Positions 36,487-63,397 of a stretch of 64,000 bases of DNA are shown one piece after another. The notes beneath the pieces are model-generated. The model was not told the DNA's origin. It was given only the letters and a program-made list of their open reading frames with translations, and searched no databases. The position numbers and the translations under genes are program-made. The stretch is from Streptantibioticus cattleyicolor NRRL 8057 = DSM 46488 (GTDB lineage: Bacteria > Actinomycetota > Actinomycetes > Streptomycetales > Streptomycetaceae), in the NCBI RefSeq assembly GCF_000240165.1, contig NC_017586.1, positions 1,736,001-1,800,000 of the forward strand, written 5' to 3'. How positions within the stretch are numbered: position 1 is the stretch's first letter; each line of letters opens with the position of its first letter.

Positions 36487-36639
36487 TCACTCACACCTCG
36501 TTGCCTGCTGGTCCTCGGCGCACGTTGCGCATAGCCCGGCTTCCACGCCGTTCCAGTCGAACAGGCCGGCTGCCAGCATGTTTTGGCAGCACTCGCAGTC
36601 TTCGGTGTCGTCGTCCTAGCCGTGGTCGTAGTCGTACAT
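36487..36639 (-). CDS. small zinc-ribbon protein with in-frame amber codon
   Basis: Start ATG at 36639 overlaps the polA stop (ATGA). The frame is M-Y-D-Y-D-H-G, then TAG at codon 8 (36616-36618), then an intact 42-residue continuation with C-E-C-C and C-A-T-C pairs and stop TGA at 36487. The four-cysteine layout suggests one bound zinc. Without read-through only a seven-residue peptide is made, so this gene depends on amber decoding. Predicted residue at the TAG is Tyr by analogy with the rest of the prophage. Confidence 0.7.
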
Positions 36640-38435
36640 CAGTGCTTGGATTCCTCCAGTTCCAGGACCGATCCCCAGGACCGGTCTCCGATCTCGCCCT
36701 CAGCCGGGATCAGCACGCCCCGGATGGTGAACTCCATGAGCCGTGCGGCTTCCCTGGTCAGCTCGGCAGCGGCATCGCGTGGGAAGCTGAACAGGATCTC
36801 GTCGTGGATCGGCAGCCGCATGTACGGCGCGAACCCGGCGTCCGCCAGGCGCAGCAGCGCGCGGGCCGTGATGTCCCGGCTCCCCGACTGGATGAAGTAG
36901 TTCAGGGCTGCGTACGCGCGTCCCCGGTCCACCGGCAGGCGCCTGCCGGTGGGGGTGTAGACGAACCCTGTCCGCCTGGCCTCGTCGGCGAGCTGCTTCG
37001 CCAGGACCCCGACGCGCGGGTATGTGTCGGCGAACGCGCTGAGCGTGCGCTTGGCGGTCTCCTCGTCCACGCCGAACTGTTCGACCATGGCACGCCAGCC
37101 GCCGCCGAACACGGTCAGGAAGTTCGCGCCCTTGCCTACCTTTCTCGGGACGCCGGCCGCGTCCGCGGTGATCTGGTGCAGGTCCAGGCCGTTGGCGAAC
37201 GCGTGGAGCATCGTCGGGTCTTGGGAGAACGCGGCGAGGTCGCGCAACTCCATGTTTCCGAAGTCGATCGACACACTTACGTGTCCTTCCTCGGCGAGGA
37301 ACATGTGCCGCACGTAGCCGTCCCCGGCCGGGAATGTCTGGGCGGGCACGCTGCCGGTGATGCTCATGCGTGCTGTGCGTGCCTGGATGGAGTTGATCGA
37401 CGCGTGGACGCGCCCCCGGCTGTCTCTGCCGTCGAGCGCTCGCTGGAACCAGGTTGCCGACCACTTGCGGGCCCGTCGCGCCTTGATGACTGCTTCGGCA
37501 AGGGGGTGGTCGATGCCGTTGAGTACGTCATCGTCCATTGCCAGATTGCCCTTGGCTGTCTTCTTGGTGAGACGGATCCCGAAGCCCAGGAATGCGTCTA
37601 CGAGCTGAGCGGTGGAGTTGATGTTCTCGACGCCATACCTATTGGCTACCTGCTCCCATCGCTCGTACTCGGCGGCCAGCTCCGCTAGGCGTGCTTCCGC
37701 ATAGTCGGAGTCGAGCAGGTAGCCTGTGCGCTCGATAAGTCCGGTGACGTGGTTGAGGCGGTGTTCCCAGGAGAACAGGCCGCGCCTTTTGGTGCGTGCC
37801 GGCACGAGTGGCCAGAGGATGTGGAACAGGCGGTAGGCGAGGATGGGGTCCATTCCCGCGTAGAGCAGGAAGTCCTCATCGAAGAGTTCAACAATGGGCC
37901 ATATCTTGTGCTTCGTGGTCTTGTATTTCCGGGCCAGGAGAACCATGCTCCCCTTGACCTCTTCGGCGACTACGGGATCGATGTAGTGTTTCGTCAGCTC
38001 TTCGAGTTTGAGGCCCGGCCCTTTCTCCTTGACTCCTCTGGGGTCTACGAGGTGTGCGGTGATCTTCGTGCAGATCGTCTTGGGCGCCAGAACCTCCAGG
38101 GGGATGCCCAGGGACGCCTCAATGACGTGCTGGTCGAAGATGGCGTTGTGTGCGATCAGCGTTCCGGCGCCGAGCAGTGCGCGTTGCGCAGCCCTGCGGT
38201 AGGGCTCCCCCAGCTCGACGGGGATCACGTAGGACTCGCTGCCGTTGCCGAACTGGGCCAGGCGCAGCCGGAATCCGCGGTCCCAGTCCCACCAGTTCAG
38301 GCCGGTGGTCTCGGTGTCGAACCCGAGCACCGGATTCTTGCCCAGCCAGCGGTCGAACTCCCGGATATCGTCTGTCGTCTCGACTACGTTGATCCGCACT
38401 TGCTGATGTTTGATCTTGTAGTGGAGATGCTTCAA
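36639..38435 (-). CDS. polA: DNA polymerase I (family A), phage
   Basis: 598 residues from a TTG at 38435 (a GTG twelve codons further on is an alternative). The N-terminal 3'-5' exonuclease domain has F-D-T-E-T-T-G-L and A-H-N-A-I-F-D. The polymerase domain has motif A as V-S-I-D-F-G-N-M-E-L-R (the usual Y-S-Q is replaced by F-G-N), motif B K-V-G-K-G-A-N-F-L-T-V-F-G-G, and motif C P-I-H-D-E-I-L-F. No 5' nuclease domain, as usual in phages. Replicates the phage genome with the primase and helicase encoded upstream. No TAG codons. Confidence 0.95.
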   Translation of the reverse strand: MKHLHYKIKHQQVRINVVETTDDIREFDRWLGKNPVLGFDTETTGLNWWDWDRGFRLRLAQFGNGSESYVIPVELGEPYRRAAQRALLGAGTLIAHNAIFDQHVIEASLGIPLEVLAPKTICTKITAHLVDPRGVKEKGPGLKLEELTKHYIDPVVAEEVKGSMVLLARKYKTTKHKIWPIVELFDEDFLLYAGMDPILAYRLFHILWPLVPARTKRRGLFSWEHRLNHVTGLIERTGYLLDSDYAEARLAELAAEYERWEQVANRYGVENINSTAQLVDAFLGFGIRLTKKTAKGNLAMDDDVLNGIDHPLAEAVIKARRARKWSATWFQRALDGRDSRGRVHASINSIQARTARMSITGSVPAQTFPAGDGYVRHMFLAEEGHVSVSIDFGNMELRDLAAFSQDPTMLHAFANGLDLHQITADAAGVPRKVGKGANFLTVFGGGWRAMVEQFGVDEETAKRTLSAFADTYPRVGVLAKQLADEARRTGFVYTPTGRRLPVDRGRAYAALNYFIQSGSRDITARALLRLADAGFAPYMRLPIHDEILFSFPRDAAAELTREAARLMEFTIRGVLIPAEGEIGDRSWGSVLELEESKH

Positions 38436-38436
38436 C

Positions 38437-38607
38437 TTACTCCCGGAATGCGCGGACTATGCAGTAGACGACGACCGCAACGGCGATAGTCAGGCACATG
38501 GCGGTGACCCCCGTTTCGATTGCTTTGAGCTAGCTGCCTTCGTAGGCCGATATGAGTACGAGGATCAGGAGCATGGCGAGCATGCCGTAACAGAAGGCGT
38601 AGATCAC
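38437..38607 (-). CDS. small two-helix membrane protein completed only by amber read-through
   Basis: GTG start at 38607 overlaps the upstream stop (GTGA) and follows an AAGGAG ribosome site. Frame: helix 1 (A-F-C-Y-G-M-L-A-M-L-L-I-L-V-L-I-S-A-Y-E), then TAG at 38530-38532, then a loop L-K-A-I-E-T-G-V-T and helix 2 (A-M-C-L-T-I-A-V-A-V-V-V-Y-C-I-V), ending R-A-F-R-E and TAA at 38437. 56 residues with the amber decoded. Two closely spaced helices and a basic tail are holin-like, but the early-operon position makes lysis only one possibility. Termination at TAG would give a one-helix peptide. Confidence 0.6.
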
Positions 38608-38786
38608 GGTGCGGACTCCTTGCAGTGGTGAGCTGTGGTCGCAGTGGCAATGTCCTGGGCAGTTACCGCATTGTTGTCGCAGCATGCGCAGCCTCCAGAG
38701 GCAATCTGGGTTTCGCATTTGGCGCACCACAGATCGACGCCGCCGTTTTCCAGTCCGTAGACGAGAATCCGGTTTGCTTCGGTCAT
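38604..38786 (-). CDS. small cysteine-rich (zinc-ribbon-like) protein
   Basis: 60 residues from ATG at 38786 to TGA at 38604. Contains C-A-K-C and G-G-C-A-C-C, which could bind one metal ion. The start overlaps the stop of the upstream 46-residue gene (ATGA). Function unknown. Coupled tightly to its neighbours in the early operon. Confidence 0.65.
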   Translation of the reverse strand: MTEANRILVYGLENGGVDLWCAKCETQIASGGCACCDNNAVTAQDIATATTAHHCKESAP

Positions 38787-38923
38787 CGGAATTCCTTCAG
38801 GCACCGGGCCGGCACGTGCGCGGCCGGTGAGTATTTCCATGCTTTGCACGGGCCTGCCATGTTCAGCCAGACGCCGAGTGCGAGCGCCAGCAAGAGTGCA
38901 ATCACTGTCGTCAGGGTTTTCAT
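38783..38923 (-). CDS. small membrane or secreted peptide (46 residues)
   Basis: ATG at 38923, TGA at 38783. M-K-T-L-T-T-V then a leucine/alanine helix (I-A-L-L-L-A-L-A-L-G-V-W-L), followed by a basic, cysteine-containing tail. It resembles an uncleaved signal anchor. No function recognised. Confidence 0.6.
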   Translation of the reverse strand: MKTLTTVIALLLALALGVWLNMAGPCKAWKYSPAAHVPARCLKEFR

Positions 38924-38983
38924 GTGCCTCCAAAAGGGCGGGGCGCCGGTGGTGGCCGGCGCCCCGCGATCTGCTGTGGTCGA

Positions 38984-39493
38984 TTACTTGGCCTTGAAGC
39001 CGCCGTCCTTCTGGCGCCACAGCGGTTCGCACTTGCCGCCCTCGGGGCCGTTGCAGAACATCGCGGCCCAATTCGCCTTCTCGACAAGGCTGCGGCCGTG
39101 GGGGCAGTCGTCGCCCGCAACGGCGGGAGGGGTCTTCGGGACCACCTTGCCGTTCTGGAAGGTCTTCGGCCCCGTGCCGCCAGCGCCTCCCTTGAACTGG
39201 CTGCGGGTGTAGTCGGCTGCCTTGGCGGTGAGGTCGATCAGCCCCTCTGCCTTGAGGGCGTTGAGCAGCGCGGCGCCCGCACGTGCGGTGTCCTCGGCGG
39301 TGTCGCCGTACACGGTGGGGGTCAGCCACTCGGCGTCATAGCCGCTGCCGGCCTTGAGCGTGAAGCCGATCTTGAATCGGGCAAGGTGGCGCGAGGTTTC
39401 AGGCATAGGCGCGGTCTCCTTCTTCGCGGTGGTGGTCTGGTGTGAGGGCACGTCCCACGGGGACTTGTCCTCGAAGGGGTCGGGGTAGCTCAA
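38984..39493 (-). CDS. phage protein of unknown function, possible DNA-binding accessory
   Basis: 169 residues from a TTG at 39493, chosen because GGAG lies five bases upstream; a TTG at 39514 is also open. F-K-I-G-F-T-L-K-A-G-S-G-Y-D-A-E-W-L suggests a beta-rich N-terminal half. The C-terminal half carries D-D-C-P-H-G, F-C-N-G and G-K-C-E-P-L, a possible metal site. Located between nrdJ and a set of tiny genes; a replication accessory such as a single-strand-binding protein is possible but not shown. TAA stop. Confidence 0.6.
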   Translation of the reverse strand: MSYPDPFEDKSPWDVPSHQTTTAKKETAPMPETSRHLARFKIGFTLKAGSGYDAEWLTPTVYGDTAEDTARAGAALLNALKAEGLIDLTAKAADYTRSQFKGGAGGTGPKTFQNGKVVPKTPPAVAGDDCPHGRSLVEKANWAAMFCNGPEGGKCEPLWRQKDGGFKAK

Positions 39494-39537
39494 GATCACT
39501 CCACGGGTTGGCAATTCATTCGTTCGTCGGCGGGGTG

Positions 39538-41547: not shown

Positions 41548-42104
41548 GCGGCTCCCCTCTTGGTTCGGATGTGGCGGTTCATGGACAGGGCCAGGGCGTC
41601 AACGGCCCGGTAACCTCGGCGCCGTTCGGCGTCATTCACCGGGGGCATTCCGTAGACGTAAAGCCGCTGGATCAATTCCTGATATTCGTTGCTCAGCTTC
41701 GGCAGCGCTGCGGCAGCGTCCAGCCGCGCGGGCATGATGTTGTCGGAGATCACGCACCGAGTCAGGTCGTCCTTCTTACCGACAACGTCTCCAATTTCGT
41801 CGTCCGTATAGACGAACGTACGCAGAACGGTCCGGACTTCATCGGGTGTGTAGTAATACTGATCGTCCATCAGGTCTCGGTAAGCGCGCTCCTTGGCCGC
41901 GTACCGGCGCCCGGCATTCCAAAAGACCTTGCGAATGAACTCGTGGTCCTCGGCATGCTCGGCGAGAGTGCGGCGCTCCTCCATCGCGTGCAGCAGGATT
42001 TCCTGCTTGACGTCATCGACTTCAACCACGCACCACTTGTTAGCGATCTCCCGGGCCACCTTGCCGGCCAGCTCGCTAAGCTGTCCCCAGTCGAGGTCCG
42101 TCAT
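41544..42104 (-). CDS. sigma-factor-like protein
   Basis: 186 residues. The segment V-V-E-V-D-D-V-K-Q-E-I-L-L-H-A resembles sigma-70 region 2. The distal A-L-P-K-L-S-N-E-Y-Q-E-L-I-Q-R-L-Y plus R-R-G-Y-R-A-V-D-A-L-A-L-S-M-N resembles region 4. It could be a phage sigma factor redirecting host RNA polymerase. Alternatively it is a helix-turn-helix protein with only a distant relationship. Coupled to nrdJ and to the gene at 42,101. Confidence 0.6.
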   Translation of the reverse strand: MTDLDWGQLSELAGKVAREIANKWCVVEVDDVKQEILLHAMEERRTLAEHAEDHEFIRKVFWNAGRRYAAKERAYRDLMDDQYYYTPDEVRTVLRTFVYTDDEIGDVVGKKDDLTRCVISDNIMPARLDAAAALPKLSNEYQELIQRLYVYGMPPVNDAERRRGYRAVDALALSMNRHIRTKRGAA

Positions 42105-42451
42105 GCGACCGCCTTCATGGCGCTTTCCCAGGCCAGCTCAGTAGACCCGTCCGGGTAACGGACGATGTAAGTGAAGTCGCCATCCCTATCAGGTTCACTG
42201 GCAACACCAACGATCTTCCCTTCGCAGCAGTACACCTCGACCTTCTGCTCGATCTGGTACTTCGGAGACAGAACACGCTCGAAAACTCCGCCTACGCCGA
42301 ACAGGGCACACTTCGCTATCTGAGGGGATGCCCACTCGTCACCGATGTAAGCGACGTATTCCGTGCCTCCGTGCTCGAACGGCTCAGCCACGGTGAAAAA
42401 GCTTAGCCCGCTCATTTTCGAACGGTACTCCCGCCCCTTCCACATACTCAT
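42101..42451 (-). CDS. phage protein of unknown function
   Basis: 116 residues from ATG at 42451, overlapping both neighbours by four bases. Mainly beta-strand-like with E-Y-V-A-Y-I-G-D-E-W-A-S and Y-I-V-R-Y-P-D-G-S-T-E-L-A-W. No motif that I recognise. Confidence 0.65.
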   Translation of the reverse strand: MSMWKGREYRSKMSGLSFFTVAEPFEHGGTEYVAYIGDEWASPQIAKCALFGVGGVFERVLSPKYQIEQKVEVYCCEGKIVGVASEPDRDGDFTYIVRYPDGSTELAWESAMKAVA

Positions 42452-43260
42452 GCCTTACCCCCCTTAGAAATGAACTTTCCGCGCGGTCCGCGCTTGATCT
42501 CGCCATACCGCTGGCCCTCGACCACGAACGATCCGTCGTCCTCGATCGGGATCGCGTGCGGAGTGGCGTTGTACTTGCCGACGTAGAACAGGCCGAAGCC
42601 CTTTTGCCAGTTGGCCGGCCCGTTCTTGAGATATCCGGCCTGGCGGACATCCATGAGATGTCCGACCTCGAACCCGTAGATGGTCCGGAGCTTTCCGTTA
42701 TGCCCGGTGGTGTGCGGAGCGATGGCCAGCCGGTGAGTGTGCCCCATGACGATGCTGATTCCGGCCTTGGCCGCCTTGAGCCGCGCAGTCGCGCCAGCCA
42801 CCTGGCTCATTCCCGGCGACTCGTGCCCGTGGACCGCCACCCATCCAGGCGCCAAGGGGTAATAGGGTTCGGCCTTCTTCACGTCGAAGGCCGGAAAGTC
42901 CAGCAGGGTCTCAAACCGGTAGAACGTGTCCTCGGCCGCCAGCGCCGGCGCCCGGCTGGCCAGATACTTCCGCGGCCGTTCGTCGTGGTTGCCTTCCAGC
43001 ACCTACACGGGGCCGGAGTAGACCTCACGAAGCGGAGCCAAGAAGTTCCTCTTGGTGTACTCGGAGTCCCGGATCACATTCCCCTCGAACTCCGCCCGGG
43101 TACCTGCGGACCACCGCGACGGAGCCGGGTAGTCCACCAGGTCGCCGATCTGGATCACTTCGTCCGGCTGGTAGTCACCGATGAACGCGAGGACGTTCCG
43201 CAGCGCCCGCTTGTCTTCGAATGGCGCTTGCACGTCGGATATGACAACTATTCGCTTCAC
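42448..43260 (-). CDS. calcineurin-like metallophosphoesterase with in-frame amber codon
   Basis: 271 codons from GTG at 43260 to TGA at 42448, with TAG at codon 86 (43003-43005). Before the TAG: I-S-D-V-Q-A-P-F-E-D (metal ligand) and G-D-L-V-D-Y. Immediately after it: V-L-E-G-N-H-D-E-R-P (the core G-N-H-D motif), then V-H-G-H-E-S and M-G-H-T-H-R. All metal-binding motifs of the superfamily are present only if the TAG is decoded; stopping there would remove the active site. A Tyr fits the strand before G-N-H-D. Likely role in phage nucleic-acid or nucleotide metabolism. Confidence 0.85.
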
Positions 43261-44903: not shown

Positions 44904-44905
44904 CT

Positions 44906-45316: not shown

Positions 45317-45351
45317 CGCCCCTCCCCACTCTCAACGTAGAGGAACAGGAT

Positions 45352-45385
45352 CCCCTGATTCAACTTCACGGACAAAAAAAATTGT
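45352..45385 (-). promoter_or_regulatory. repeated early-region motif, copy upstream of the resolvase-like gene
   Basis: On the minus strand: an eight-T run, seven bases, then AAGTTGAATCAGGGGATC. The same arrangement occurs at 46,222-46,255. It lies in the gap between the DnaB-like gene and the resolvase-like gene. Possible repressor operator (stoperator-like) or phage-specific promoter. Confidence 0.6.
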
Positions 45386-48697: not shown

Positions 48698-48796
48698 AGG
48701 GATGCGGTGTGTGGAGTGCACAGGGAGCCAGTAGCCGGCCGGTAGCTCCGGCCCGCGAGCCCCTCCCAGGCGCCGGTTCGACCCCGGCCATCCCGG
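48698..48796 (+). ncRNA. tRNA-like element, incomplete cloverleaf
   Basis: A perfect T arm GCCGG-TTCGACC-CCGGC is followed by CATCCC, which pairs with GGGATG at 48699-48704 as an acceptor stem. A D-like arm (GTGT ... GCAC) is present, but the expected anticodon arm is replaced by a longer GGAGC / GCTCC stem enclosing about 16 bases. No clean seven-base anticodon loop. It is probably a degenerate or inserted tRNA, or a tRNA mimic. Confidence 0.4.
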
Positions 48797-48820
48797 TCAA
48801 CTTCCGAGGAGGGTGAAGCC

Positions 48821-49172: not shown

Positions 49173-49254
49173 GCGTTGGGCGCTGGGACGCACGGGGGCC
49201 TCTAAATCCCTCGCTCTGTACGGAGCTGGTCCGGTTCGATTCCGGGGCAACGCA
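49173..49254 (+). tRNA. predicted amber suppressor tRNA, anticodon CTA (probably tRNA-Tyr type)
   Basis: About 82 nt. Acceptor pairs 49173-49178 with 49248-49253 (GCGTTG / CAACGC), discriminator A49254. The anticodon loop is CTCTAAA (49200-49206) with anticodon CTA at 49202-49204 on a stem GGGG / CCCT. A long variable arm GCTC-TGTACG-GAGC marks class II, and the T arm is TCCGG-TTCGATT-CCGGG. Class II plus G1-C72, A73 and A37-A38 fits bacterial tRNA-Tyr (normally GTA), one base from CTA; Leu is the main alternative. Odd points: G7-G66 and C31-U39 mismatches and a short D arm. No CCA encoded. Confidence 0.65.
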
Positions 49255-49347: not shown

Positions 49348-49418
49348 GTGTCCGTAGTTCAGCGGCCGAGAACTCCTCCCTTCAGGAGGTAACGCCGGTT
49401 CGAATCCGGCCGGACACA
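49348..49418 (+). tRNA. putative tRNA-Glu(TTC)
   Basis: Acceptor GTGTCCG / CGGACAC is perfect, D arm GTTC / GAAC, T arm GCCGG-TTCGAAT-CCGGC, discriminator A. The anticodon arm CCTC-CCTTCAG-GAGG gives anticodon TTC but has C at position 33 instead of U, and CCTCC / GGAGG could close a five-base loop. So it may be a phage tRNA-Glu with an altered loop or a decaying gene. The gap 49,255-49,347 contains small hairpins but no gene. Confidence 0.65.
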
Positions 49419-49472
49419 CCGCCACACCTAGTTGTGGATTCATTCATTCACCCTTCCCCTGGAGGCCCACCC

Positions 49473-49652
49473 ATGACTGCCGACCGCTGTTCCCGCCGAT
49501 GCGACGAGGGGCCCTAGGCCGACTCCGGCTCGGTGCCGGCTCCCCGCCCGCCCCGGGCGCAGCAGCGGCGTGACTGGCACCAGGACGCGTTGTTCGAGCT
49601 GGAGGAGCTGGCCGACCTGTACGGGATCGACCTGGAGCGGGTGAGGCTGTGA
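49473..49652 (+). CDS. small phage protein with in-frame amber codon
   Basis: ATG at 49473 after a GGAGG site; TAG at codon 15 (49515-49517); TGA at 49650-49652. 59 residues if the TAG is read. N-terminal M-T-A-D-R-C-S-R-R-C, then after the TAG A-D-S-G-S-V-P-A-P-R and a helical acidic end (L-F-E-L-E-E-L-A-D-L-Y-G-I-D-L). The stop overlaps the terminase small-subunit start, a coupled arrangement that supports translation through the TAG. Function unknown. Confidence 0.65.
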
Positions 49653-50080
49653 CCAGAGGACCCCGCCCGAAGCCCAACGCGGTCCGGCGCAACGCCCATC
49701 CCCACGCGCAGGAACTCGCCGCGGAGGCTCGTGAGGGCCGGCCCCTGCCGAAGGCGCTCGGGATCCAGACCAGCGGCGCACGCCGGTTCTGGCGGACGTG
49801 GGCCCGTGCACCGCAGACGGCCACATGGGTTGAGACCGACTGGGCTGAGCTGGAGATCACGGCGAAGCTGGTTGATGCCCTGTACATGGGCGATCTGAAG
49901 TTGGCGCCCGAGATCCGGCAGCGGGTAGCGAAGTGGGGCGCAACGGTTGAGGACCGTGCACGGCTCCGGATGTCCCTCAAGGATGAGGACCAGGACCAGG
50001 ATGACGCTGGGCCGGAGTCCGCGGCGCCGGCCGCCTCCGACATGGACGAGGAGCTGTACCGGTTGCTCAACGGACCCTAA
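49649..50080 (+). CDS. terS: terminase small subunit
   Basis: 143 residues from GTG at 49649, overlapping the preceding stop. N-terminal G-P-R-P-K-P-N-A-V-R-R-N is the common basic start of actinophage small terminases, followed by a helical DNA-binding/oligomerisation region (W-A-E-L-E-I-T-A-K-L-V-D-A-L) and an acidic tail. Recognises phage DNA for packaging. Assignment rests on position and overall layout. No TAG codons; TAA stop. Confidence 0.75.
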   Translation: MTRGPRPKPNAVRRNAHPHAQELAAEAREGRPLPKALGIQTSGARRFWRTWARAPQTATWVETDWAELEITAKLVDALYMGDLKLAPEIRQRVAKWGATVEDRARLRMSLKDEDQDQDDAGPESAAPAASDMDEELYRLLNGP

Positions 50081-50115: not shown

Positions 50116-51681
50116 ATGCAGACAGGCAACCTGCCCGATGGGGTTCCGTCCCCGCGGGAGTCCCTGGGTTACCAGGTGATCCGCTGGGCACAGCGGTAGA
50201 TCGTCCACCCCGACGGCGAGCGCGCGGGCGAGCCCTGGCAGTTCACCCCCGAACAACTCAAGTTCGTGCTGTGGTTCTACGCCATCAATCCCGATGGCAC
50301 CTGGCGCTACAGCGCTGGCACCCTGCGACGGGCGAAGGGCTGGGGCAAGACCCCGTTGCTCGCCGCCTTGGCCATTGTCGAGTTCATCGGCCCCTGCCGC
50401 TTCGACCGCTTCGACGCCTTCGGCCTGCCGGTCGCCAAGCGCGTTCCGCTGCCCACGGTGCAGATCGGTGCCACCGCGCTCGACCAAACGGACCAGACAC
50501 TTGAGATGATCCGAGGGATGCTCTCGGAGTCTCCGGCCGAGAAAGAGTACGGGCTGGAGATCGGCAAGTCCGTGATCCAGTTCAAGTCTGGCAAGCCGGG
50601 GTCGATCCGGCCGAAGGCGACCGCTGGCCGCACCAATGAGGGCAACAGGCCGACGTTCGCCCTGCTTGATGAAGTACACCACTGGGTTGGGAGCAACGGC
50701 GGCCCCGACTTCTACCAGGTCATCAAGCGCAACGTAGAAAAGACGGCCTCCGCTGGCTCTCGCTGGGTGACCACGACCAACGCCTAGAACCCGAATGAAG
50801 ATTCGGTCGCTCAGCAGATCCACGAGTCCGACATGGTTCGCCAGGGCTTCTGGCTGTACGACTGCCTTGAAGGCAACATCCAGCCGGACGAGCTGCGCGA
50901 CGAAGCCAAGGTCCGCCAGGCGCTCACCGAGGCGTACGGTGACGCGACGTGGGCCGACATCGACGGCCTGACGCGCACCATCCTGCACGACCGCACGACG
51001 CCTGATTCGACGTACCTGCGCTTCTTCTTCAACGCCATCGCGGAGTCTTCCGACGGCTGGATGGTCCGCGCGGAGTGGCTGGCCTGTTACGACGACCAGG
51101 ACCCCATCAAGCCGGGCGATCAAATAGCCGTGGGCTTCGATGGCTCGATCCGCGGAGACGCCACAGGGCTCGTGGGATGCAGGCTCCGGGACGGAAAACT
51201 CTTCGTCTTGGGGATCTGGGAAAACCCTCGGGACCCCAATAACCCTGACTGGGAAGTTGACGTCCTGGCGGTCGAGGCCGCAGTGCACCGAGCCTTCAAA
51301 ACGTATCGCGTCCAGTGGTTCTACGGTGACCCGCCGTACTGGCAGGAGAACCTAGGCCGCTGGGCTCTCGAATACGGTGACGACTACGTATACGAATTCT
51401 GGACCAATAAGCCTACGCGCATGGTCCAGGCCGTTGAGAGGTTCCGCACCGCTTCCATGGTCCAAGACCTGAAGCACGACGGAGATGAAGACCTCACCCG
51501 GCACATTCTCAATGCGGTGACGCGTGAAGTCCCTCAGGGACTCCTGATCACCAAAGACTCTCCCCGTTCAAAGAAGAAGATCGACCTCGCGGTTTGTGCA
51601 GTCCTGGCTTTTGAGGCGCGAGCCGACGCAATCGCGGACGGGCGCCTCACGATCAAACGAAAAAGAGTTGTCGGGTTCTGA
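50116..51681 (+). CDS. terL: terminase large subunit with two in-frame amber codons
   Basis: 522 codons from ATG at 50116 to TGA at 51679. TAG at codon 28 (50197-50199, R-W-A-Q-R[TAG]I-V-H-P-D-G) and codon 224 (50785-50787, T-T-T-N-A[TAG]N-P-N-E-D). Walker A-like R-A-K-G-W-G-K-T, Walker B F-A-L-L-D-E-V-H-H, and a C-terminal nuclease beginning A-V-G-F-D-G-S-I-R. Frame and homology continue uninterrupted across both TAGs, and the residue at the second is usually aromatic in relatives. Cleaves concatemers and drives DNA into the prohead. Confidence 0.93.
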
Positions 51682-51708
51682 GAAGGGCCCCGGAAAGAAA
51701 GGGGCTTG

Positions 51709-53169
51709 ATGGACGGCGGTAGCCTCGTCAGCACGACGCCGGCCGAGATGCCGGTAGGTATCGCGCCGAGCACACCTGAGCAGTGGGTTGACTAGCTGTA
51801 TTCGAAGCTGGCCCGCCGCAAGGCGACCTACCAGATTTAGGGCCAGTATTACGACGGCCAGCATCAGCGCCTCATGTTCTCGCAGGCACGGCACTACAAC
51901 CACTTCCACCAGACCTTCGAGAGCTGGCGAGACAACTTCTGCGGCTTGATCATCGACTCGGTGAACGAACGCCTCACCGTGGACGGTTTCCGGATGACTG
52001 ACGAGCCGGATGCCGACAAGGATGCTCGGGACATCTGGCAGCGCAACTACATGGATGCCGAACACAACGCGGCTCAGCTCGACGCGATGATTCAGGGCGC
52101 CTCTTACGCGGTTGTGTGGTCGGACGACGACGACCAACCGACCATCACCATGGAGAGCGCTGAGAACGTTGTCGTCCAGTACAAACCAGGGTCCAGGCGT
52201 GAACTCGCTGCCGCGGCGAAGTTCTACTAGGACGACTGGGGCCGGGAATGGGTGAACCTCTGGCTTCCTGACGCTGTGTGGTCGTTCGCCAAAGGCTCTT
52301 TGGCGTGGGGAGAGGGGCAAGAAGGCCCTAATCCACTGGGGGTTGTTCCAGTGGTTCCGATCAGCAACCGGTCTCGGCTGCTGCGTGACCCGGTGAGTGA
52401 TCTCCATGTCGTCATCCCGATCCAGGACGCCATCAACAAGACCGTTGCTGACGCTCTGGTGGCGTCGGAGTATGCGGCTTGGCCTCAGCGCTACGTCACC
52501 GGCCTGGAAATCGTGGAGGACGAGCACGGCAATCCGGTTGAGCCGTTCAAGGTCGCCGTGGACAAGCTGCTCCAGGCCGAGGACCCGCAAGCCAAGTTCG
52601 GTCAGTTCGAGGCCGCCGACCTCGGCAACTACGTGACGCTGGTGGAGATGCTGGTCCAGCACATGGCCAGCATTTCCCGGATCCCGTTCCATTACTTCCT
52701 CAATGGTGGCGTCGTCCCGTCCGGTGAGTCGATTACCGCTGCGGAGGCAGGTCTCATAGCCAAGACCCGTGAGCGCATGCTGCACTTCGGGGAGGCATGG
52801 GAAGAGGTGATGCGCCTTTGCTTCAAGGTGCTGGACGATCCCCGCTCAAAGGCGTATTCGGCAGAGACGATCTGGAAGGATCCGGAGAACCGCACGGAAG
52901 CACAGCACATGGACGCTCTGCTCAAGCTCCAGATGATCGGCGTTCCGAGGGACCAGTTGCTTTCCGATGCCGGGTACACGCCTCAGCAGATTGCGCGGTT
53001 CCAGGACATGAGGGAAGCCGATGCCAAGGCCGCAATGGAGTTGGCGAAGAAGTACCCGATGCCTGTCCCGGAACCGCCGGCCGGGCCCGTCGGCATGAGC
53101 AAGGCGGCCCAGCAGACAGCCGTGAAGCGCCCGCAGGGCAACAGCGGCAACCAGGCCCGCAAGTCGTGA
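51709..53169 (+). CDS. portal protein (SPP1 gp6-like) with three in-frame amber codons
   Basis: 487 codons from ATG at 51709 to TGA at 53167. TAG at 51793-51795 (Q-W-V-D[TAG]L-Y-S-K-L), 51838-51840 (T-Y-Q-I[TAG]G-Q-Y-Y-D-G) and 52228-52230 (A-A-K-F-Y[TAG]D-D-W-G-R). The Y-Y-D-G-Q-H segment, the central stem region and the C-terminal helical part with S-G-E-S-I-T-A-A-E-A-G-L match actinophage portal proteins. Forms the dodecameric DNA entry ring at the capsid vertex. Read-through is needed at all three positions for any functional product. Confidence 0.92.
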
Positions 53170-53796: not shown

Positions 53797-54879
53797 ATGG
53801 CAGGCTTTATCACTCAGCCCGGAACCGGCTACCAGGCCAATTCCGGCAACGTTTTCATCCCCGAAATCTGGACCGCTGAACTCCTCCAGGATCTTGAGGA
53901 AGAGCTGGTTCTGGCTTCGGCTCGGTTCACCAACCGGCAGTAGGAGGGCGAGTTCCGCCGGGAAGGTGATGTCGTCCACATCCCGCACTTCGTCAATGAC
54001 CAGGTGCAGGACAAGGGGCTTGTCCCGGCGTACGGCACGATCGGTTCGCCCGACCACGCGTCCCTCCAGTACATCGATATGCGAGTCGCCAAGGGCTCAT
54101 CTTTCCATATCGAAGTGGACGCGCTCCACCAGCTCCAGACCAGGGTCGGTATCGACCTGATGAGCAACCTCATTGCTCAGCGGGCTCGCGCCATCGCCAT
54201 CAAGCTGGATGAGCTGGTCGCCAAGACCCTGCTCGCCGCAGTGAGCGGCAAGGATCTGAACGGCAATGCCGATGCGAATGCGGCGGTTTCCGGTCTGACT
54301 GCTCTCCATGGCCAGATTGACGAGATCACCGACGCGCCGACTGGCGACAACGTCACCCGGGTTGGGGGCAAGGAACGGCTGAGCGTCTATCACTACGTGG
54401 TGGCGATGCTGGAGAACCTGGATATCAAGTCGGCGCCGGCCGACCGGTTCCTGTTCATTTCCCCGCGCATGCGGTCACTGCTGCTGCGCGACCCGAACTT
54501 CATCCAGGCGCAGGTGTACGGCGGTTCGCCGGTCATCCCGAACGGCGCTTCGGCGATCGGCACCATTCTCGGTGTCCCGGTCACTGTGGCCAACGCGCTG
54601 GGTTCCCACACCCGGCCGAACAACCCGCTCATCAAGAAGGGCAACCAGGCGTTCCAGCCGGTTGACTTGTACATGGGTGCCACCGCGGCTACGTCGGTCG
54701 TTATTCCGTTCGCGCAGATGGAGGCGTACAAGCCGCAGCAGTCTTTCACCGACGCGATCAAGTCGCGCGTGATCTACGACGCGAAGGTCATCCGGCCGGA
54801 ACAGCTCGTCGTGGCGCGCAACGTCGAGGCCGCCATTACCGCGCACAACGGCGCCAGCACGACCCCGGCCACGACCTGA
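53797..54879 (+). CDS. major capsid protein with in-frame amber codon
   Basis: 361 codons from ATG at 53797 to TGA at 54877. TAG at codon 49 (53941-53943): F-T-N-R-Q[TAG]E-G-E-F-R-R-E-G-D-V-V. Many P22-coat-like actinophage capsids carry N-R-x-Y-E-G-E at this place, which argues for Tyr. The rest (A-V-A-S-type core, M-E-A-Y-K-P-Q-Q-S-F, A-A-I-T-A-H-N-G at the end) is intact. Being the most abundant virion protein, it would need very efficient decoding of the TAG. Confidence 0.92.
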
Positions 54880-55505
54880 TGTTCGTGACCGTAGACGATG
54901 TGGTCGCCCGCCTGGGGCGGCCCGTCGCCGACGACGCCGAGCGGGCGCGGATCCTGGCGTACATCGAGGACGCCACCGCGCTGGTGCTCGACTGGTGCCA
55001 GACCGACTTCCAGCAGCACCAGGCCGAGACGTTCGAGCTGCTGGTGGAGGGCGGGCAGGTGGACATCCCGCCCCGGTACCTGCCGGGGCTGTCGGTCGCC
55101 TCGGTCGCTCTCGACGGGCGCCCGCTCAGCGTCGACGAGTGGCGGGTGCTGGGGCGGACGCTGTACCTGCGCCGTGGTCCGGTCACGGGGCTGGTCACTC
55201 TCATCGCGTCGTGGGGGCGCCCGTCCGTTCCGCCGGTCATCCGGCAGGTGATCGCCTCCGAGGTGATCCGGTGGCTTGCGGTCTCTCCGGGGACCGTGCT
55301 GGAGAAGACCGGTGAGCTTGAGGTGCAGTACGCGCCGGCCGCGAATTTCGCGGGTCTCTCCCTGGCGGCCAAGGACTCCTTGAAGCGGTACCGGAAGCGC
55401 GCGACGACCATCGCCTTGCACCGGACCCGGACCGTGCGCCCTGGAGGTGAAGAAGTCACGTGGCCCTGTTCAACGACCACATAGCCGTCTGGCGGGCTCC
55501 CCTGA
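54879..55505 (+). CDS. head-tail connector (adaptor) protein
   Basis: Start ATG at 54879, overlapping the capsid stop. 201 codons reach TAG at 55482-55484; if TAG is decoded, the frame continues P-S-G-G-L-P and ends at TGA 55503-55505. This is the only annotated prophage gene whose standard-code stop is TAG with no clear homologous continuation, and a backup TGA follows at once. V-D-D-V-V-A-R-L-G-R-P and A-L-V-L-D-W-C fit gp6/gp15-type adaptors that bind the portal. Predicted cytoplasmic structural protein. Confidence 0.82.
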
Positions 55506-55786: not shown

Positions 55787-56169
55787 TGGCGAGGCGGAAG
55801 CGGTACACCAAGTCCGCGCGGGACGGAATCCTCTTCGAAACGGATCTCGGGTTCCTGCTCTACGAGATCCAGCACAGCTCACCGTGGAAGGAGATGGCGG
55901 CCTTCAAGGCAGGCATGCTGGCCGGGAAGATCATCAAGACGGCGCCTCGCGGCCCTCACCAGGTCACCGACGCATACTCGATCAAGCAGAACATCCACGC
56001 CAACGTGAAGAAGACAAGCGCCGGTTGGGTCGGGTACGTCACCATCGAGGAGAACCCGCAGGCGCGGCACGCGATGCTCCAGGAGAAGGGCTGGACGGAC
56101 CGCGCCGGCCACCGGCACGCCGGGCGCTTCTACATCAAGGCAGTCCTCGACGCGGAGCGTGCGGAGTGA
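55786..56169 (+). CDS. HK97 gp10-like tail/neck protein
   Basis: 127 residues from ATG at 55786, overlapping the previous stop. Charged N-terminus (R-R-K-R-Y-T-K-S-A-R) and A-P-R-G-P-H-Q-V-T-D-A-Y-S, then H-A-M-L-Q-E-K-G-W-T-D-R-A-G-H-R-H-A-G-R, the common pattern of gp10-like proteins. Acts between head and tail. TGA stop. Confidence 0.75.
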   Translation: MARRKRYTKSARDGILFETDLGFLLYEIQHSSPWKEMAAFKAGMLAGKIIKTAPRGPHQVTDAYSIKQNIHANVKKTSAGWVGYVTIEENPQARHAMLQEKGWTDRAGHRHAGRFYIKAVLDAERAE

Positions 56170-56552
56170 GAGTTGACCCGGTGCCTCTCGTGGTCGAGTA
56201 CCTGAAGAGCTGCCCGGGAATCCCGGCCGGCGCCCCCACAGGGACGCTGGTGGGCCGGGAAGTCGGCACCACGAGCCTGTACGTCCTCCACAGCGGTGGT
56301 CACCGCCTGGTACGCGACCGGATGGACCGCGCTGACATCTGGTAGGACGCCTACCACCAGGACCGGGCCTCGGCCGCGGACCTGGCCTACCTCACCCGCG
56401 AACTCCTGCTGGAGGACCTGCCGGGCAAGGTACTCAAAGGCGTCCAGGTACTCGACGTGCTGGAACTGAACTCCCCCAAGTACCTGCCTGACTCCGCGTC
56501 CGTTGAGGACGTTTACGGCGGCGAAGTCGCCATTTTCTATGTTGAGACCTGA
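56166..56552 (+). CDS. tail terminator protein with in-frame amber codon
   Basis: 129 codons from GTG at 56166 to TGA at 56550. TAG at codon 60 (56343-56345): A-D-I-W[TAG]D-A-Y-H-Q-D. After the TAG the frame continues with L-A-Y-L-T-R-E-L-L-L-E-D-L-P-G and Y-G-G-E-V-A-I-F-Y-V-E-T, typical of the C-terminal half of tail terminators. The ring stops tail-tube growth and joins the tail to the head. Neither half alone has the expected length. Confidence 0.85.
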
Positions 56553-56570
56553 GACCCCGAGGATTTATTC

Positions 56571-57203
56571 ATGGCTAATGATTCCGGAAAGATCCGGTTC
56601 GCGCCGAACGGCGCTCTCTATGTTGCTCCGGCTCCCGATGGCACCCCGAACGGTACGGTACTGCCGACCACGGTCGGCGACGGCGGTACGACCGGCCCGG
56701 CCGGATAGAAGGCACTCGGTTAGGTCACCGAGTCCGGCGTGACCATCACGCCGCAGGTGCAGACCGATCCGGTAAACGTCTGGCAGTCCGCCGTACCGGT
56801 TCTCTACAACGTCAAGGCGGCTTCCTTCTCGATCAAGGCCACGCTGACCGAAGTTTCGAAGATCACCACTGAGTTGTTTTTCGGGGCTTCCTGGGTGAAG
56901 CAGGGCGCAGGTGTGTGGAAGCTGAACTTGGCGAGTGTTCCGACGCTCACTCAGATCAGCCTGGTCGTGGACTGGGGCGATGCTGCCAAGCATTTCCGAT
57001 GCGTGATTCCGCGCGCGATGATTTCCGACCGAGGGGCGATCACCCTTCAGCGCACCACGGCGCAGGAGTTCGAGCTGACCTTTGAAGCGCTTGACTTCAA
57101 CGGCACGTTGGGCTTCGTTCTGACCGATGACGCCAACGTGGACGACGGCACTCCGTCCGGCTCTGGCTCGGGCTCTGGCGGCACCACGCCGCCGACCACC
57201 TGA
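56571..57203 (+). CDS. major tail (tube) protein with two in-frame amber codons
   Basis: 211 codons from ATG at 56571 to TGA at 57201. TAG at 56706-56708 and 56721-56723, five codons apart: G-P-A-G[TAG]K-A-L-G[TAG]V-T-E-S-G-V-T-I. Tail tube proteins often have G-Y-V-S-E-D-G-V at this site, so both fit Tyr. Then V-W-Q-S-A-V-P-V and a Ser/Gly/Thr-rich C-terminus. Polymerises into the tail tube. Standard-code translation would yield only a 45-residue fragment. Confidence 0.9.
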
Positions 57204-57251
57204 GCAGCCTCACTTCCCCCCCCCTGTCCCATCCTCTTCATGGAGTTTTGC

Positions 57252-57500: not shown

Positions 57501-57895
57501 CCCCTGCCGTCCATGCCCTACGCGAGCACCCCGAGGAACTTGAAGCGGATCTGATCGAGTTCTTCGGGGTCGATCTCATCGACCTGTGGCACGGACGGCT
57601 TTCCCTCCGGAGGATCAGCGTCCTCGTGAACGCACTGTGCCGCCGGCCGGGCCGGTCGGCGCTCGCTGCCGTGATGGATCCGGCTGCCGAGTGGAGCACA
57701 TCTGATTACCTGCTGGCCCGTGTCTCCGATGCCCTGGAACTGAACACCTATCTTTACCTCAAGGTGCATTCGGAGGACGGCAGCAATCTGACAGCGCCGG
57801 AGCCGATTCCGCGGCCGGGCGAGGAGAAACCGACGGAGGAGTTCGAGTACGCCTCCGGGGAGGAGGTGGCGCACTTCCTCACGCACATGCTGTAA
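57252..57895 (+). CDS. tail assembly chaperone, frameshifted long form (gpG-T-like)
   Basis: Made by -1 frameshifting at GGGAAAC (57491-57497). After the shift the frame reads L-T-P-A-V-H-A-L-R-E-H-P-E-E-L and continues to TAA at 57893-57895. The T part has Y-L-L-A-R-V-S-D-A-L-E-L-N-T-Y and an acidic tail ending F-L-T-H-M-L. Long and short forms together chaperone the tape measure protein. The second frame has no good separate start, which supports frameshifting. Confidence 0.82.
57491..57497 (+). other. -1 ribosomal frameshift site GGGAAAC
   Basis: Canonical X-XXY-YYZ heptamer, read in zero frame as GTG-GGA-AAC followed at once by TGA. It is positioned exactly where the chaperone short form ends and the -1 frame opens. 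Confidence 0.85.
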
Positions 57896-57904
57896 GGAGG
57901 CATT

Positions 57905-60900
57905 ATGGCCGTGACTGGTGGCATCCGGATCGGGAATGCGTTCATCGAGATCACACCGCAGATGGACGATGCGACCCTCACTCGGCAGCTCGCCGAGGTT
58001 GAGAAGCAGATCAAGGCGTTCTACACCCGTGCTTCCGATGTCACCAAGGCGTACTCACGGCTTCAGACTCAGCTCGAAGCGGTGGTCACCGCCCGGTAGG
58101 GCGAGGAGCTGAAGGGGCGCCTGGCCCTCACCGCCGACTCCATCAAGGCCCGGAAGTCGCTGGCTGCCTCCGAGTCTGCCGTCATGCTCCAGGCGCTCAG
58201 GCAGGTCTCCGCTGCTGCGGAGAAGGCTGAGGCGGCGAAGACGGCGGCGGCCGACAAGGCAACGCGCCAGCGCGAGCGCATCGCGCTCAACGCGCGGGAC
58301 CTGGAGGTGCGCTACGGGCGCCAGGTCGCCGACGCCTACCTCGCCCGGCTGGACCAGATGCGCGCGGCCGGCGAGAAGCTGACGCTCACCCGGATCAACG
58401 AGACGAAGCGTTGGGCGGAGCTGGAGGTTGCCGAGTACCGCCGTACAGTCGCGGAGGCCCGCACCGCGGCGGCCGAGAAGGCGAAGGCGGCTCGTGCGGC
58501 TCAGGCGGAGTACCGGGCCATGGCTGCCCAGGTGCAGGAGACCACCCTGCGGCGGATGGAACTGGAGCGTACCGCTACTGTGCGCGCGCTCCAGGGTGAG
58601 CGGGACCGGCAGACAGCCATCCAGCGAACCATGGCCGAGGAGCTGAGCCGTACCCGGGGCACTCTGGCGATGCTGTCGACGGCCAGCACCACGGCGGCGT
58701 CCCGGTGGAAGACGGCCGGTGAGTCCATCACGAAGTACGGCACCACCGCCACCGAGCTGGGCCACACCCTCATGACCAGTGTGGTGGCTCCGCTGGCTGC
58801 TGCGGGCGCCGGCCTGACCGACTGGGGCCTGAAAGCGGCTGATGTCTTCCAGAACACACAGACCTCGCTGCGGAACATGGGCATGGCGCTGAGGGACGCC
58901 GACGCCCTGATGAACAACCTCACCCGGTACGGTCTGCAAACCCCGTACGCGGTGGGCGACATGCTGACGTACGGCACGCGGATCGCCCGTGCGGCCGGCG
59001 CGCACAACAGTGACTTCAACTCCGCGGATCCGCGCAGGCAGGCCCGGGGTTCCACTGCTGTGTCCACGGAGGCACAGCACATCGTGCAGATGATCGGTGA
59101 CCTCGCGGCACGCGGTGGTATCACCGACTCGGCGATGGTCCAGCGCGGTTACTACGCCATCGAAAAGCTGATGGACGCCGACCGCGTTTCGCTTCGGGAC
59201 ACCAAGCAGCTTGAGTACGCCATCAACATGCCGGTTCAGGATCTCGCCCAGCTTCTCGGTTTCAGGGATTCCCAGTACACCCAACGGCAGGTCGACGGTT
59301 TCAAAAAGGTCAACCCGGGATTCCACGCCAAGGCCGGGGACATCTATCCCGCCTCCGCCATGATGATGGAGGTCATGGCCAACGCCAAGGACACCGGCGG
59401 CGTGCGGGGCCAGGACCTCGTGGGAAACCTCTTGGAGTTCTGGGAAGGCAAGAAGGCGCTCCCCGGCGGGAAGCCGGACAAGACGATCCGGGGCGCCGCC
59501 GAACGGCTGGGCACCGCGACATTCAGCAGCCGCATTTCCAACATGAAGGAGACGTGGCAGCAGCAACTTCGCGCGATGTTCCAGACCTAGGACCCGAAGA
59601 CCGGGCAGCTTCGGTACACGGGGCTGGGCCAGGCCATCATGGGCCGCCAGGTCCGGGACCGGAAGACCGGCCAGACCACCTGGCAAGGCGGCTTGCTCAA
59701 CCAGGTCAACGGCATCGCCTCGGACCTCATGGGCAAGGGCGGCAAGGGTGCCGTCCCTCAGCTCATGGCCGGGTTTGTCGAGGGAATGACGACCCTCGTC
59801 GGCTGGCTGAAGAAGGTGGCCAGTTTCCTGAACGGCCATCCGCAGTTGGTGTCCGGCCTGAAGGAGGCGGCGAAGCTCGTCGGGGTCATCGCTCCGTTGA
59901 CGATTGCTTTCGGCACCACGGCGAAGATATTCGGCAAGCTGATCAAGCTCAGCACGCCGCTTGTCTCGACGCTCGTCGGCGGCGGAAAGATCATCGGTCA
60001 ATTCATGGCCGGCGGCTTGTCCATGCTGAACGGCACCGGATTCCGGAACGGCTACGTGTCGCAGCGCGGCCTGTTCAACGGCGGGGACACCCGCAGTGTT
60101 GCCCGCCGGGCCGTCGATAAGGTCACGGGGAACAATTCCCAGGAAGAGCGCCTGCGCATCAACATCGCTCAGTACAAAGAGCAGATGGAGAAGGCAAAGG
60201 CCGAAGCCCAGGAACTCCGCGACAAGATCCGGGAGCTGAACCGCCAAGACCTGAACCACCTCGCCCGACAGGCCGCAGGCAGTGACAGCAGTGTGCAGGC
60301 AGCCGCCCGCCGGGCCGCTGAGGCGACGGAGGCCGCGAAGGTCGCGGTAGGCAACCTCGACCGGGCCAAGCTCGCCGGACTGCGAGGCCAGTTCACCTCC
60401 AGCGCCACGACAACGGGCGAGCTGGACACCGCAGTGAAGGCAGCGACCAACCGGGTCAACAAGCTCAACGGTCGCAGTCTGGACTCCCTGAAGGGGCAGT
60501 TCTCGCACGTCAAGAACGAGACGGACGAGACGATCAAGAAGGCGTCCAGCCTGACCGGTCGCGTCTCCTCGCTCAACGAGCGCAAGCTGAGTGCTGTCAC
60601 GGACCAGGTGCAGCACCTCGGCCGCGCCCTGGCCGACGCCGGGGTCAAGGCAGAGGCTCTGAACCTGGCCCTCGACCACATCGGGAAGAAGGCGCCGGGC
60701 AAGGGCGACGGACCTGCGGTGCACAAGCCCAACAAGTACGCCACGGGCGGTGTCGTCCCCGGCTAGGCGCCGGGCGTGGACATCGTGCCGGCGATCCTCT
60801 CCCCCGGTGAGGCGATCCTGCGCCCGGAGGTCGCTCGCACACTCGGCCATGAACGAATCAATGCGTGGAACACGCTCGCCGTGCGGGGCCAGCTCCGCCG

Positions 60901-63397
60901 GTTCGCCGGCGGCGGCATCGTCGAGCGCCTGGGCCTGGGCAAGCTCATCGACCTGTCGAAGAGCTTCGCCGTCGGCGGGGATGCGCTGGCGGCCCTGGCC
61001 ACCATGAGCATGGACAGCTCCTCCCGGGCACTGGGCGGCACCACGCAGGACGGTGTTCTGGCGACCGGTACGGGCGCTGCGCGCACGGTCGGCGCCAACG
61101 TCGCCGAGCAGTTCAGCGGCATCTGGCACTTCCTGTCCCGGGACTCGTGGACGTTCCTGCGCCGGATACCCACTGCGGTGGGTCAGGCGGTCGGCATCGT
61201 CGGCGGCGCCCTGGGCCCGCAGGCAGGCCACTACCTGTGGGACGACGTGTGGAAGGGGCAGGGGAACATCTTCCAGCGCGGCGGGAAGTTCCTCGGGGAC
61301 CTGTTCTCCCCGTCGAACCTGCTCCACATGGTGGAGGAGGTGTTCAAGGGGCTGTGGGACTCCGCCAAGGGCATCTGGGCTGTCGGCAGGGGCTTGGTCA
61401 CTGACCCGCTGGGGACCATCCGGGATGCCGCCAATGGTGTCTGGGACCTGGCCAAGTCGCAGTACACCGGCCTGGTGGACATGGTGAAGGCAACCAAGCA
61501 GATCTTCACCAGCCCGATGGACTACGCGAGCCGTGTGGTCCACGAGGTGACCTCCACGGCAAAGGACGCGCTGCCCAACACCAAGGGACTGTGGGACTTC
61601 GGCAGCGGGGACCAGCTCGACGCCACGCAGCCGGACATGTCCAACGCGCTGGGGAGCATGTTCAGCCTGCCGGGGGTCGGCGACGCCGTGACCCGATGGG
61701 CGCCACTGGCCCGTGCTGCTCTGATGCAGCTCGGTCTGTCCGAGACGTAGGTACCGCTCGTCCTGCACCGCATCCAGGTCGAGTCCGGCGGCAACCCGAA
61801 CGCCATCAATTTGTGGGACAGCAACGCCCTGGCCGGCATGCCGAGTCAGGGGCTCATGCAGACGATCCCGCCCACGTTCGACGCCTACGCCGGTCCGTAC
61901 CGCAGTCTCGGGATCACCAACCCTCTGGCCAGCATCTATGCCGGTCTCAACTACGCGATCCACCGCTAGGGCGCCGGCTGGGTGCAGGCCCTCGCCGGCA
62001 CCGCCGGGTACGCCTCAGGCACCTCGGGGGCACGGCCCGGCTGGGCCTGGGTCGGCGAGGAAGGCCCCGAACTCGTCCGGTTCGGCGGCGGGGAGACGGT
62101 GCTGAACCACCGGGACTCGATGCGGGCCGCAACCCGTGGCCTGCCCGGGTACGCCTCGGGCACGAAGTCGGGCGTGGCCGTCGACGCGGAGAAGGGCGCG
62201 TCCTCGCTGAGTGCTGCGGTGAAGCGGCTCTACGAGATCATCACCAAGGCGTTCACGTCCGGGCGGATCGGCCAGGGCACGGAGAATTCGCTGAACCGCT
62301 GGCTCGACGGTGAGAACAAGGCACTGTCGAACCTGGTGAAGCAGCGGACCGACCTGGCGGGGAAGCTGAAAGCGGCTCAGGCCGCGTTGAAGAAGGTCAA
62401 GGACGACGAGGCGAAAATGGCCTCGGGGATCTCCGACAAGGCATCGTCCCTGCGCGACCTGTCATCGGTTTTCAATTCCGATGGCGTGTCGGTGACTGCT
62501 GGTCTGTCCGGGCTCCACGAGCGCCTGGCCGCCATCAAGAAGTTCCAGGCCAACCTGAACACCTTGGTGAAGCGGGGTTTCTCGTCGGCAATCATCGAGA
62601 ACATCGCGGAGGCCGGTCCGGAACAGGGCGGGGCCATGGCTCAGGAACTCCTGAACGCCACCGGCGCCCAGATCAAGGACTACAACAAGACGTACGCAGC
62701 CATCGGCACGGCGTCCGATTCCCTCGGGAACTCGGTAGCCAAGTCCTACTACGCCACTGGCGAGAAGGCTGCTCAGCGTCTTGTCGATGGTCTGATGTCC
62801 AAGGACAAGGTATTGGTCAAGAAGATCGAGTCCCTTGCGGATTCGATCGTCCGGACGCTGAAGAGGACGCTGAATTTCGGCTCCACCACACCGGTGACCT
62901 CCGGTCTGGGTGCTCTGCTCACCTGGCTCACCGGCGAGTCGCAGAGCGTCGGGCGCAAGCCCAAGCCGAAGCCCAAGCCCAAGCCCAAGCCGACGCCGCA
63001 GGTCAAGCGCACGGTCACGACCACGACGGGATACGACTCCAAGGGGCGGTCCGTCACCACGGTGACGACGACCATCACGGATCCGTGGGCCGGTACGACC
63101 ACCACCATCACGGAGCGGACCGTCGACGGGCGGACGACCACCACCCGATCCGTCCGCAGGACGACCAAGGGCTACGCCACCGGCACTCTTTCCGCCTCGC
63201 CGGGTATGGCGCTGGTCGGTGAACGCGGCCCGGAACTCGTGGACTTCCGCGGAGGCGAGCGCGTCTACACCGCACGGCAGACGGCCGACCTGATGGGGCC
63301 TCGCTACGAGATCCACATTCATGAAGCGAAGGCGGAGAACACCACGCAGGCCGTTCTCCGCGCGCTGAAGTACGCGGAGGTGATGTCAGGAATGTAA
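57905..63397 (+). CDS. tape measure protein with five in-frame amber codons
   Basis: 1831 codons from ATG at 57905 to TAA at 63395. TAGs at 58097, 59588, 60764, 61748 and 61967. Contexts: V-V-T-A-R[TAG]G-E-E, M-F-Q-T[TAG]D-P-K-T, V-V-P-G[TAG]A-P-G-V-D, L-S-E-T[TAG]V-P-L-V, A-I-H-R[TAG]G-A-G-W. The third and fifth match G-Y-A-P-G and H-R-Y-G patterns of relatives. Parts: coiled-coil N-terminus, hydrophobic middle, an SLT-type lytic transglycosylase domain ([17 protein letters not shown]), and a Lys-Pro repeat linker near 62,955-62,995. Sets tail length and probably opens the cell wall. Confidence 0.93.

Follow-up and report, generated by a model that had tools for sequence, protein, structure and literature searches.

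How can a phage build its virions when the genes for its terminase, portal, capsid, tail tube and tape measure are all crossed by amber codons? The question is raised by a prophage of Streptantibioticus cattleyicolor NRRL 8057 = DSM 46488 (Streptomycetaceae; 8.1 Mb genome in two contigs), much of which lies in the 64,000-nucleotide (nt) stretch of NC_017586.1 analyzed here (1,736,001-1,800,000; hereafter the window, with position 1 as its first letter and extended coordinates running past its end). A preliminary description of the window had listed 19 TAG codons as lying in frame inside intact prophage genes and had proposed a prophage-wide amber recoding. We propose, with a probability of about 0.92, that UAG encodes tyrosine in this phage by way of a phage tRNA-Tyr(GUA) that was turned into an amber suppressor by the anticodon change G34 to C.

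All 19 listed coordinates are indeed TAG, 16 on the plus strand and three (36616, 38530 and 43003) on the minus strand, and the listed genes contain neither an internal TAA or TGA nor a frameshift, in line with what had been claimed. Translating TAG as a sense codon opens long frames of known function on the plus strand: the terminase large subunit (TerL, 50116..51681) with TAGs at 50197 and 50785, the portal protein (51706..53169; PHROG 104, E 4e-126) with three (51793, 51838 and 52228), the major capsid protein (53797..54879) with one at 53941, the tail terminator (56166..56552) with one at 56343, the major tail protein that forms the tail tube (56571..57203) with two at a spacing of five codons (56706 and 56721), and a tape measure protein of 1830 amino acids (aa; 57905..63397) with five (58097, 59588, 60764, 61748 and 61967). 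The earlier statement that terminase, portal, capsid, tail tube and tape measure need TAG decoding agrees with these frames, which read through TAG in each case. One TAG each was also found in a 59-aa open reading frame (ORF) before the gene for the terminase small subunit (TerS) (49473..49652, plus strand; TAG 49515) and in an early metallophosphoesterase (42448..43260, minus strand; TAG 43003), and beyond the end of the window a holin-like gene has one more probable site, 67298.

The claim that all 19 codons are internal to intact genes stands for most of them, is poorly supported for two and fails for one. On the minus strand, TAG 36616..36618 falls close to the start of a weakly supported small ORF rich in Cys, and TAG 38530..38532 lies in a small membrane-protein ORF with little homology support. 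TAG 55482 closes the gene of the head-tail adaptor (54879..55484, plus strand); aligned relatives stop at exactly the same codon, with TAA in eight and TAG in one, so this is not an internal codon but the old natural end of the gene, and readthrough would add six codons before the next in-frame stop, TGA 55503. In the right arm of the prophage, TAGs 67593, 75585 and 81971 lie upstream of likely gene starts and the frame 83711-84175 is antisense to a gene, and these were left uncounted.

The residue that TAG probably encodes was read from alignments in which the TAG-containing genes were set against their counterparts in four annotated phages and in relatives drawn from family genomes, IMG/VR and GTDB, a check that the preliminary description had suggested. 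At 12 of the 17 informative sites most relatives have tyrosine. It occupies the capsid site 53941 in all 24 aligned loci, the major tail sites 56721 in 35/35 and 56706 in 27/35 (Phe in 7/35), and the tape measure site 60764 in 31/32 (His in 1/32). The terminase sites carry Tyr in 74/88 (50197; Phe 6/88) and 66/90 (50785; Phe 20/90) loci, and the portal sites in 40/65 (51838; Phe 13/65) and 33/65 (51793; Trp 20, Phe 10), while smaller samples give Tyr in 11/16 at 58097, 3/3 at 61967, 3/3 at the tail terminator site 56343, and Y/Y/Y/F in four relatives at 49515. Relatives that truly terminate at TAG, which had been named as grounds for rejecting recoding, were seen only at 55482; none of those aligned terminates at an internal site. 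Because the aligned loci are not all independent, identical contexts were collapsed and each site was capped at three observations; the summed BLOSUM62-based log-odds, in natural-log units and leaving out 56343, were +59.5 for Tyr, +33.3 for Phe, +16.1 for Trp, +11.2 for His and -18.1 for Gln. The Tyr majority and these scores indicate that TAG means Tyr and not the Gln of genetic code 15.

The preliminary description missed the probable decoder, a class II tRNA-Tyr with anticodon CUA at 49173-49254 (plus strand, 82 nt; anticodon CTA at 49202-49204). ARAGORN did not detect it and called only the neighboring tRNA-Glu(TTC) of the same cassette (49348..49420, plus strand; Rfam tRNA 57 bits), and Rfam matched it weakly as tRNA-Sec, a class II relative (25.6 bits). 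A covariance model built solely from phage tRNA-Tyr(GUA) genes, with the prophage sequence excluded, matched this interval at 76 bits (E 1.4e-19). The tRNA forms 23 of 24 helix pairs, and in a seven-sequence family alignment 97.6% of the paired cells are paired, with two-sided changes at 16 of 24 pairs versus 6.2 in shuffles. Identity features of tRNA-Tyr include A73, G1-C72, U35 and a long variable arm, and the CUA tRNA has them all, together with the loop CUCUAAA. It resembles the laboratory Tyr amber suppressor supF of E. coli, also a tRNA-Tyr with G34 changed to C and the loop CUCUAAA, from which it differs in being natural and phage-borne, with phage genes that probably depend on it.

BLAST matches to the family of this tRNA in phages of Streptomyces and Mycobacterium bear the annotation tRNA-Tyr. 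The fold and the covarying helices are common to the actinophage tRNA-Tyr(GUA) family (Streptomyces phages Manuel and FlowerPower, Mycobacterium phage LinStu and Streptomyces-family cassettes), and the acceptor and D arms are near-identical in several members; the prophage tRNA differs in its CUA anticodon, the loss of the 31:39 pair and a longer variable loop. A similar gene on a phage contig, L065, was called tRNA-Tyr(gta) by ARAGORN, and scanning with a pattern added three contigs that have the GTA form, among them the close relative L104 (= contig L056), where the gene lies about 670 bp upstream of TerL. Across 395 family genomes, those strong matches that were read out have GTA or, in a few degenerate copies, disrupted loops, and neither these genomes nor the pattern scans yielded another CUA member, so that CTA was found in this prophage only. 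As the intact relatives keep GTA, the suppressor appears to have arisen by G34 to C. In two family members, L130 and L133 (family genomes G061 and G041), an extra 25-54 bases are present in the region of the anticodon loop; these genes are possibly disrupted by, or contain, an inserted element. A T-arm-like sequence (ggttcgaccccggcc) upstream of the prophage tRNAs, at 48770-48800, is perhaps a degenerate tRNA and received no call from ARAGORN or Rfam.

The host genome has its own tRNA-Tyr(GTA), genes of the tyrosyl-tRNA synthetase (TyrRS) family and both release factor genes, and PF00579/PF00472 searches found no prophage-borne TyrRS or release factor. The suppressor keeps the likely recognition features of TyrRS and is therefore probably charged with Tyr by the host enzyme. 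A rightward transcript may yield the tRNA along with late mRNA, and the Tyr-charged CUA tRNA would outcompete host release factor 1 (RF1) at UAG frequently enough for head and tail proteins to be completed. TAC and TAT codons could then drift to TAG with the protein unchanged, and in-frame TAGs would build up in the head and tail block adjoining the tRNA gene. With TAGs in this block, virion production now probably depends on the CUA tRNA. An observation on the host tRNA concerns its gene at G000:C2:3741429-3741510 (L107), which has a copy of its 3′ half 18 kb away (L108, G000:C2:3759505-3759554); this pair probably marks an SLP1/AICE-type integrative element inserted in tRNA-Tyr.

The extent of the recoding is narrower than had been suggested: amber recoding is strongly supported, but the coding TAGs are concentrated at 49.5-63.4 kb, from TerL to the tape measure gene and beside the tRNA, and many prophage genes have none. 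DNA polymerase, RNR, primase, helicase, integrase, repressor, minor-tail genes, lysin and the right arm are TAG-free, as is TerS (49649..50080, plus strand), which was assigned by homology to annotated phages and whose PHROG match is labelled minor tail protein. With the Streptomyces phage Ponzi as outgroup, and restricting the count to Ponzi Tyr sites at which the prophage has Tyr or TAG, the TAG share was 9/62 from TerS to tape measure, 0/86 in early genes, 0/27 in minor-tail and lysin genes and 0/25 in the right arm (block versus rest, 9/62 versus 0/138, Fisher p=1.7e-5; block versus early genes alone, p=2.8e-4), and other reference phages gave the same distribution. Fourfold C-to-G divergence is alike across the regions (0.32-0.43), so the regional difference is not due to age. 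The neutral expectation from fourfold sites is a TAG share of about a third, and the observed share below it suggests a change that is of recent date, opposed by selection, or both.

TAG is also depleted as a terminal stop. A scan of the remaining prophage, another check that had been proposed, found terminal TAG in one of 50 genes (55482), compared with 26/115 genes in Ponzi and the related phage Success (p=4e-4), where the Ponzi and Success genes were of at least 300 nt and the prophage count, to the detriment of the argument, rests partly on our own gene calls. A gene-by-gene comparison pointed in the same direction.

Several other meanings of the TAGs have to be weighed against reassignment to Tyr. 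Glutamine is the usual predicted meaning of TAG in recoded phages (PMC11210395, PMC9523058); here, Gln is present as a few residues at two sites only, its score is far below that of Tyr, and the CUA tRNA belongs to a class II tRNA-Tyr family that is not related to tRNA-Gln, so that we consider this meaning the least probable of all. A pyrrolysine system was set aside, as tRNA-Pyl has a very short variable loop where the prophage tRNA has a long variable arm; pylS was not searched for. An integrated prophage whose virion genes are dispensable to its host could accumulate nonsense mutations, or the TAGs could come from sequencing errors, but neither process would be expected to give TAG at every internal stop and no frameshift, to strike conserved Tyr codons by third-base transversions, or to leave a matching CUA tRNA. 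The residue identity at the sites and the CUA tRNA rule out chance, and we share the earlier judgment that decay is very unlikely. Scarcely more credible is that the TAGs are true stops or sites of partial readthrough with the tRNA incidental. A terminal TAG does remain at 55482 and suppression may be incomplete; under this explanation, however, the terminase, portal and capsid proteins would all be truncated, as would the tail tube, by two TAGs only five codons apart, and relatives never terminate at these sites.

Why the TAGs stay close to the tRNA is a different matter, for which two explanations were considered. They may form a translational lock, in which the tRNA would be made with the late genes, head and tail proteins would reach full length once the suppressor accumulates, and RF1 would cut short the products of leaky late mRNA in the lysogen. 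An equivalent idea has been put forward for code-15 gut phages (PMC9523058), and late genes figure in PMC7886860 as well; the tRNA stands at the head of the rightward genes, which hold 16 of the 17 coding TAGs counted, as opposed to one TAG in 254 Tyr plus TAG codons elsewhere, and a lock would account for the near absence of TAG from early genes. Yet the minor-tail and lysin genes are also late and have no TAG at their Tyr sites, one early gene does have one (43003), and a search for a late promoter gave no convincing candidate; we hold this explanation only tentatively. The other explanation, to which we give about an even chance and a slight preference, combines neutral drift of Tyr codons to TAG with linkage of the neighboring genes to the tRNA through recombination, while segments elsewhere in the genome would be replaced from, or selected for compatibility with, non-recoded relatives. 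The TAG changes occur chiefly at Tyr sites, as silent drift predicts, and the TAGs cease at the end of the tape measure gene, inside one gene series. Identity to relatives varies by segment (Ponzi, 80% in a minor-tail gene versus 68% in TerL), and a tRNA linked to its neighbors in such a mosaic genome would account for where the block ends; the scarcity of TAG as a terminal stop, on the other hand, suggests selection too.

Returning to the reassignment of UAG to Tyr, a number of observations weigh against it. Sites 43003 (K/G/N in relatives), 52228 (mixed), 59588 (F in the closest relatives), 61748 (D/A) and 67298 are not mostly Tyr; all five look like variable positions. The last pair of the anticodon stem, 31:39 (49199/49207), is broken in this family member alone, with C.U instead of C-G, which may tune suppression efficiency or may reflect mild damage and impaired function. 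Only about 8% of late-gene Tyr codons are TAG, one terminal TAG persists at 55482, and the recoding is known from one prophage only.

The closest annotated phages, Streptomyces phages Success, Ponzi and Ibantik, have the gene order of the prophage (TerL identity 80, 68 and 56%, respectively) but use the standard code, lack in-frame TAGs at the positions aligned and, unlike the prophage, Ponzi and Success end 13-25% of their genes in TAG. No other recoded TerL relative was found among the matches listed from family genomes, IMG/VR and GTDB. Three TAG-containing DNA patterns matched only the same prophage in IMG/VR, and ten extra matches of a fourth pattern were in wrong frames and due to chance. 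One prophage copy in IMG/VR (L074) is 100% identical over 21.5 kb and is probably the same isolate, hence not independent confirmation. With recoding absent from the other relatives, the change looks recent, and the in-gene TAGs together with a tRNA-Tyr that has one changed anticodon base look like a code change near its start. An unrelated feature of the TerL comparisons is that the Ponzi gene (PQ723756.1 22753-24365) was matched as two pieces, with a break near residue 181 between the ATPase and nuclease parts and two annotated genes, and that the same two-piece match occurs in G301, G158, G030, L072, L073 and L087; it may reflect an inserted sequence, an intron or a genuine division of the gene.

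The prophage extends past the window. Comparison with relatives places its left end at about 34467, where host homology stops, and its right end at about 89.7 kb in extended coordinates, where the adjoining host gene is intact, giving a length of about 55 kb, similar to the genomes of Ponzi and Success. The left end is marked by a serine integrase gene without TAG (34504..36129, plus strand; PHROG 95, E 8e-87), and an exact-repeat search for attachment sites gave no useful result. The right arm also encodes an RsbW-like HATPase and a JmjC/cupin protein (extended coordinates 84896-88412; L008:1896-5412).

That amber recoding is known in gut phages had been stated correctly: TAG recoding with TAG as Gln, suppressor tRNAs, late-gene bias, origin by anticodon mutation and incipient TAG accumulation have all been described there (PMC7886860, PMC9523058, PMC11210395, PMC10879173). 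Like the prophage, code 15 phages, crAss-like and other gut phages, have sense TAG, a phage-borne CUA tRNA and a bias to late or structural genes (PMC7886860, PMC9523058, PMC11210395). For crAss-like phages, Yutin et al. (2021) described suppressors gained by acquisition or by a single anticodon mutation, after which TAG accumulates in TerL and conserved genes (PMC7886860). The same study describes incipient recoding in a genome unlike its closest relatives in this respect, as in the prophage, and a Gln anticodon change from TTG to TTA, to be compared with the Tyr change from GTA to CTA, where suppressor and TAG sites are found in one genome. The prophage differs in that TAG is Tyr and not Gln, TAG makes up only a small part of the Tyr codons, a single lineage is involved, and the carrier is a temperate actinobacterial phage of a GC-rich host. 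No report of natural TAG as Tyr in phages, nor of amber recoding in actinophages, was found in the open-licence papers searched, which is consistent with the earlier remark that no Streptomyces prophage case is described. What appears to be new, with priority not proven, is the residue, the host group, the temperate setting and a suppressor that descends directly from a family of phage tRNA-Tyr genes.

In conclusion, we consider it likely that this is a natural phage code with UAG as Tyr, which arose in a single actinophage lineage when one anticodon base of a phage tRNA mutated, with TAGs that are few and near the tRNA and that possibly act as a translational lock. This would add to the meanings that TAG is known to have in phages, and it means that such suppressors escape a standard tRNA finder and that annotation tools restricted to code 15 would put the wrong residue at TAG. 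Most known recoded phages come from uncultured gut viromes and have TAG as Gln or TGA as Trp, whereas here a temperate phage sits in the genome of a bacterial isolate, and its probable suppressor is available alongside unmutated relatives of this tRNA and dozens of non-recoded phage relatives. The order of events, from anticodon change through silent Tyr-to-TAG drift to the loss of terminal TAG, thus becomes directly testable, as does late-gene control as the proposed reason for recoding.

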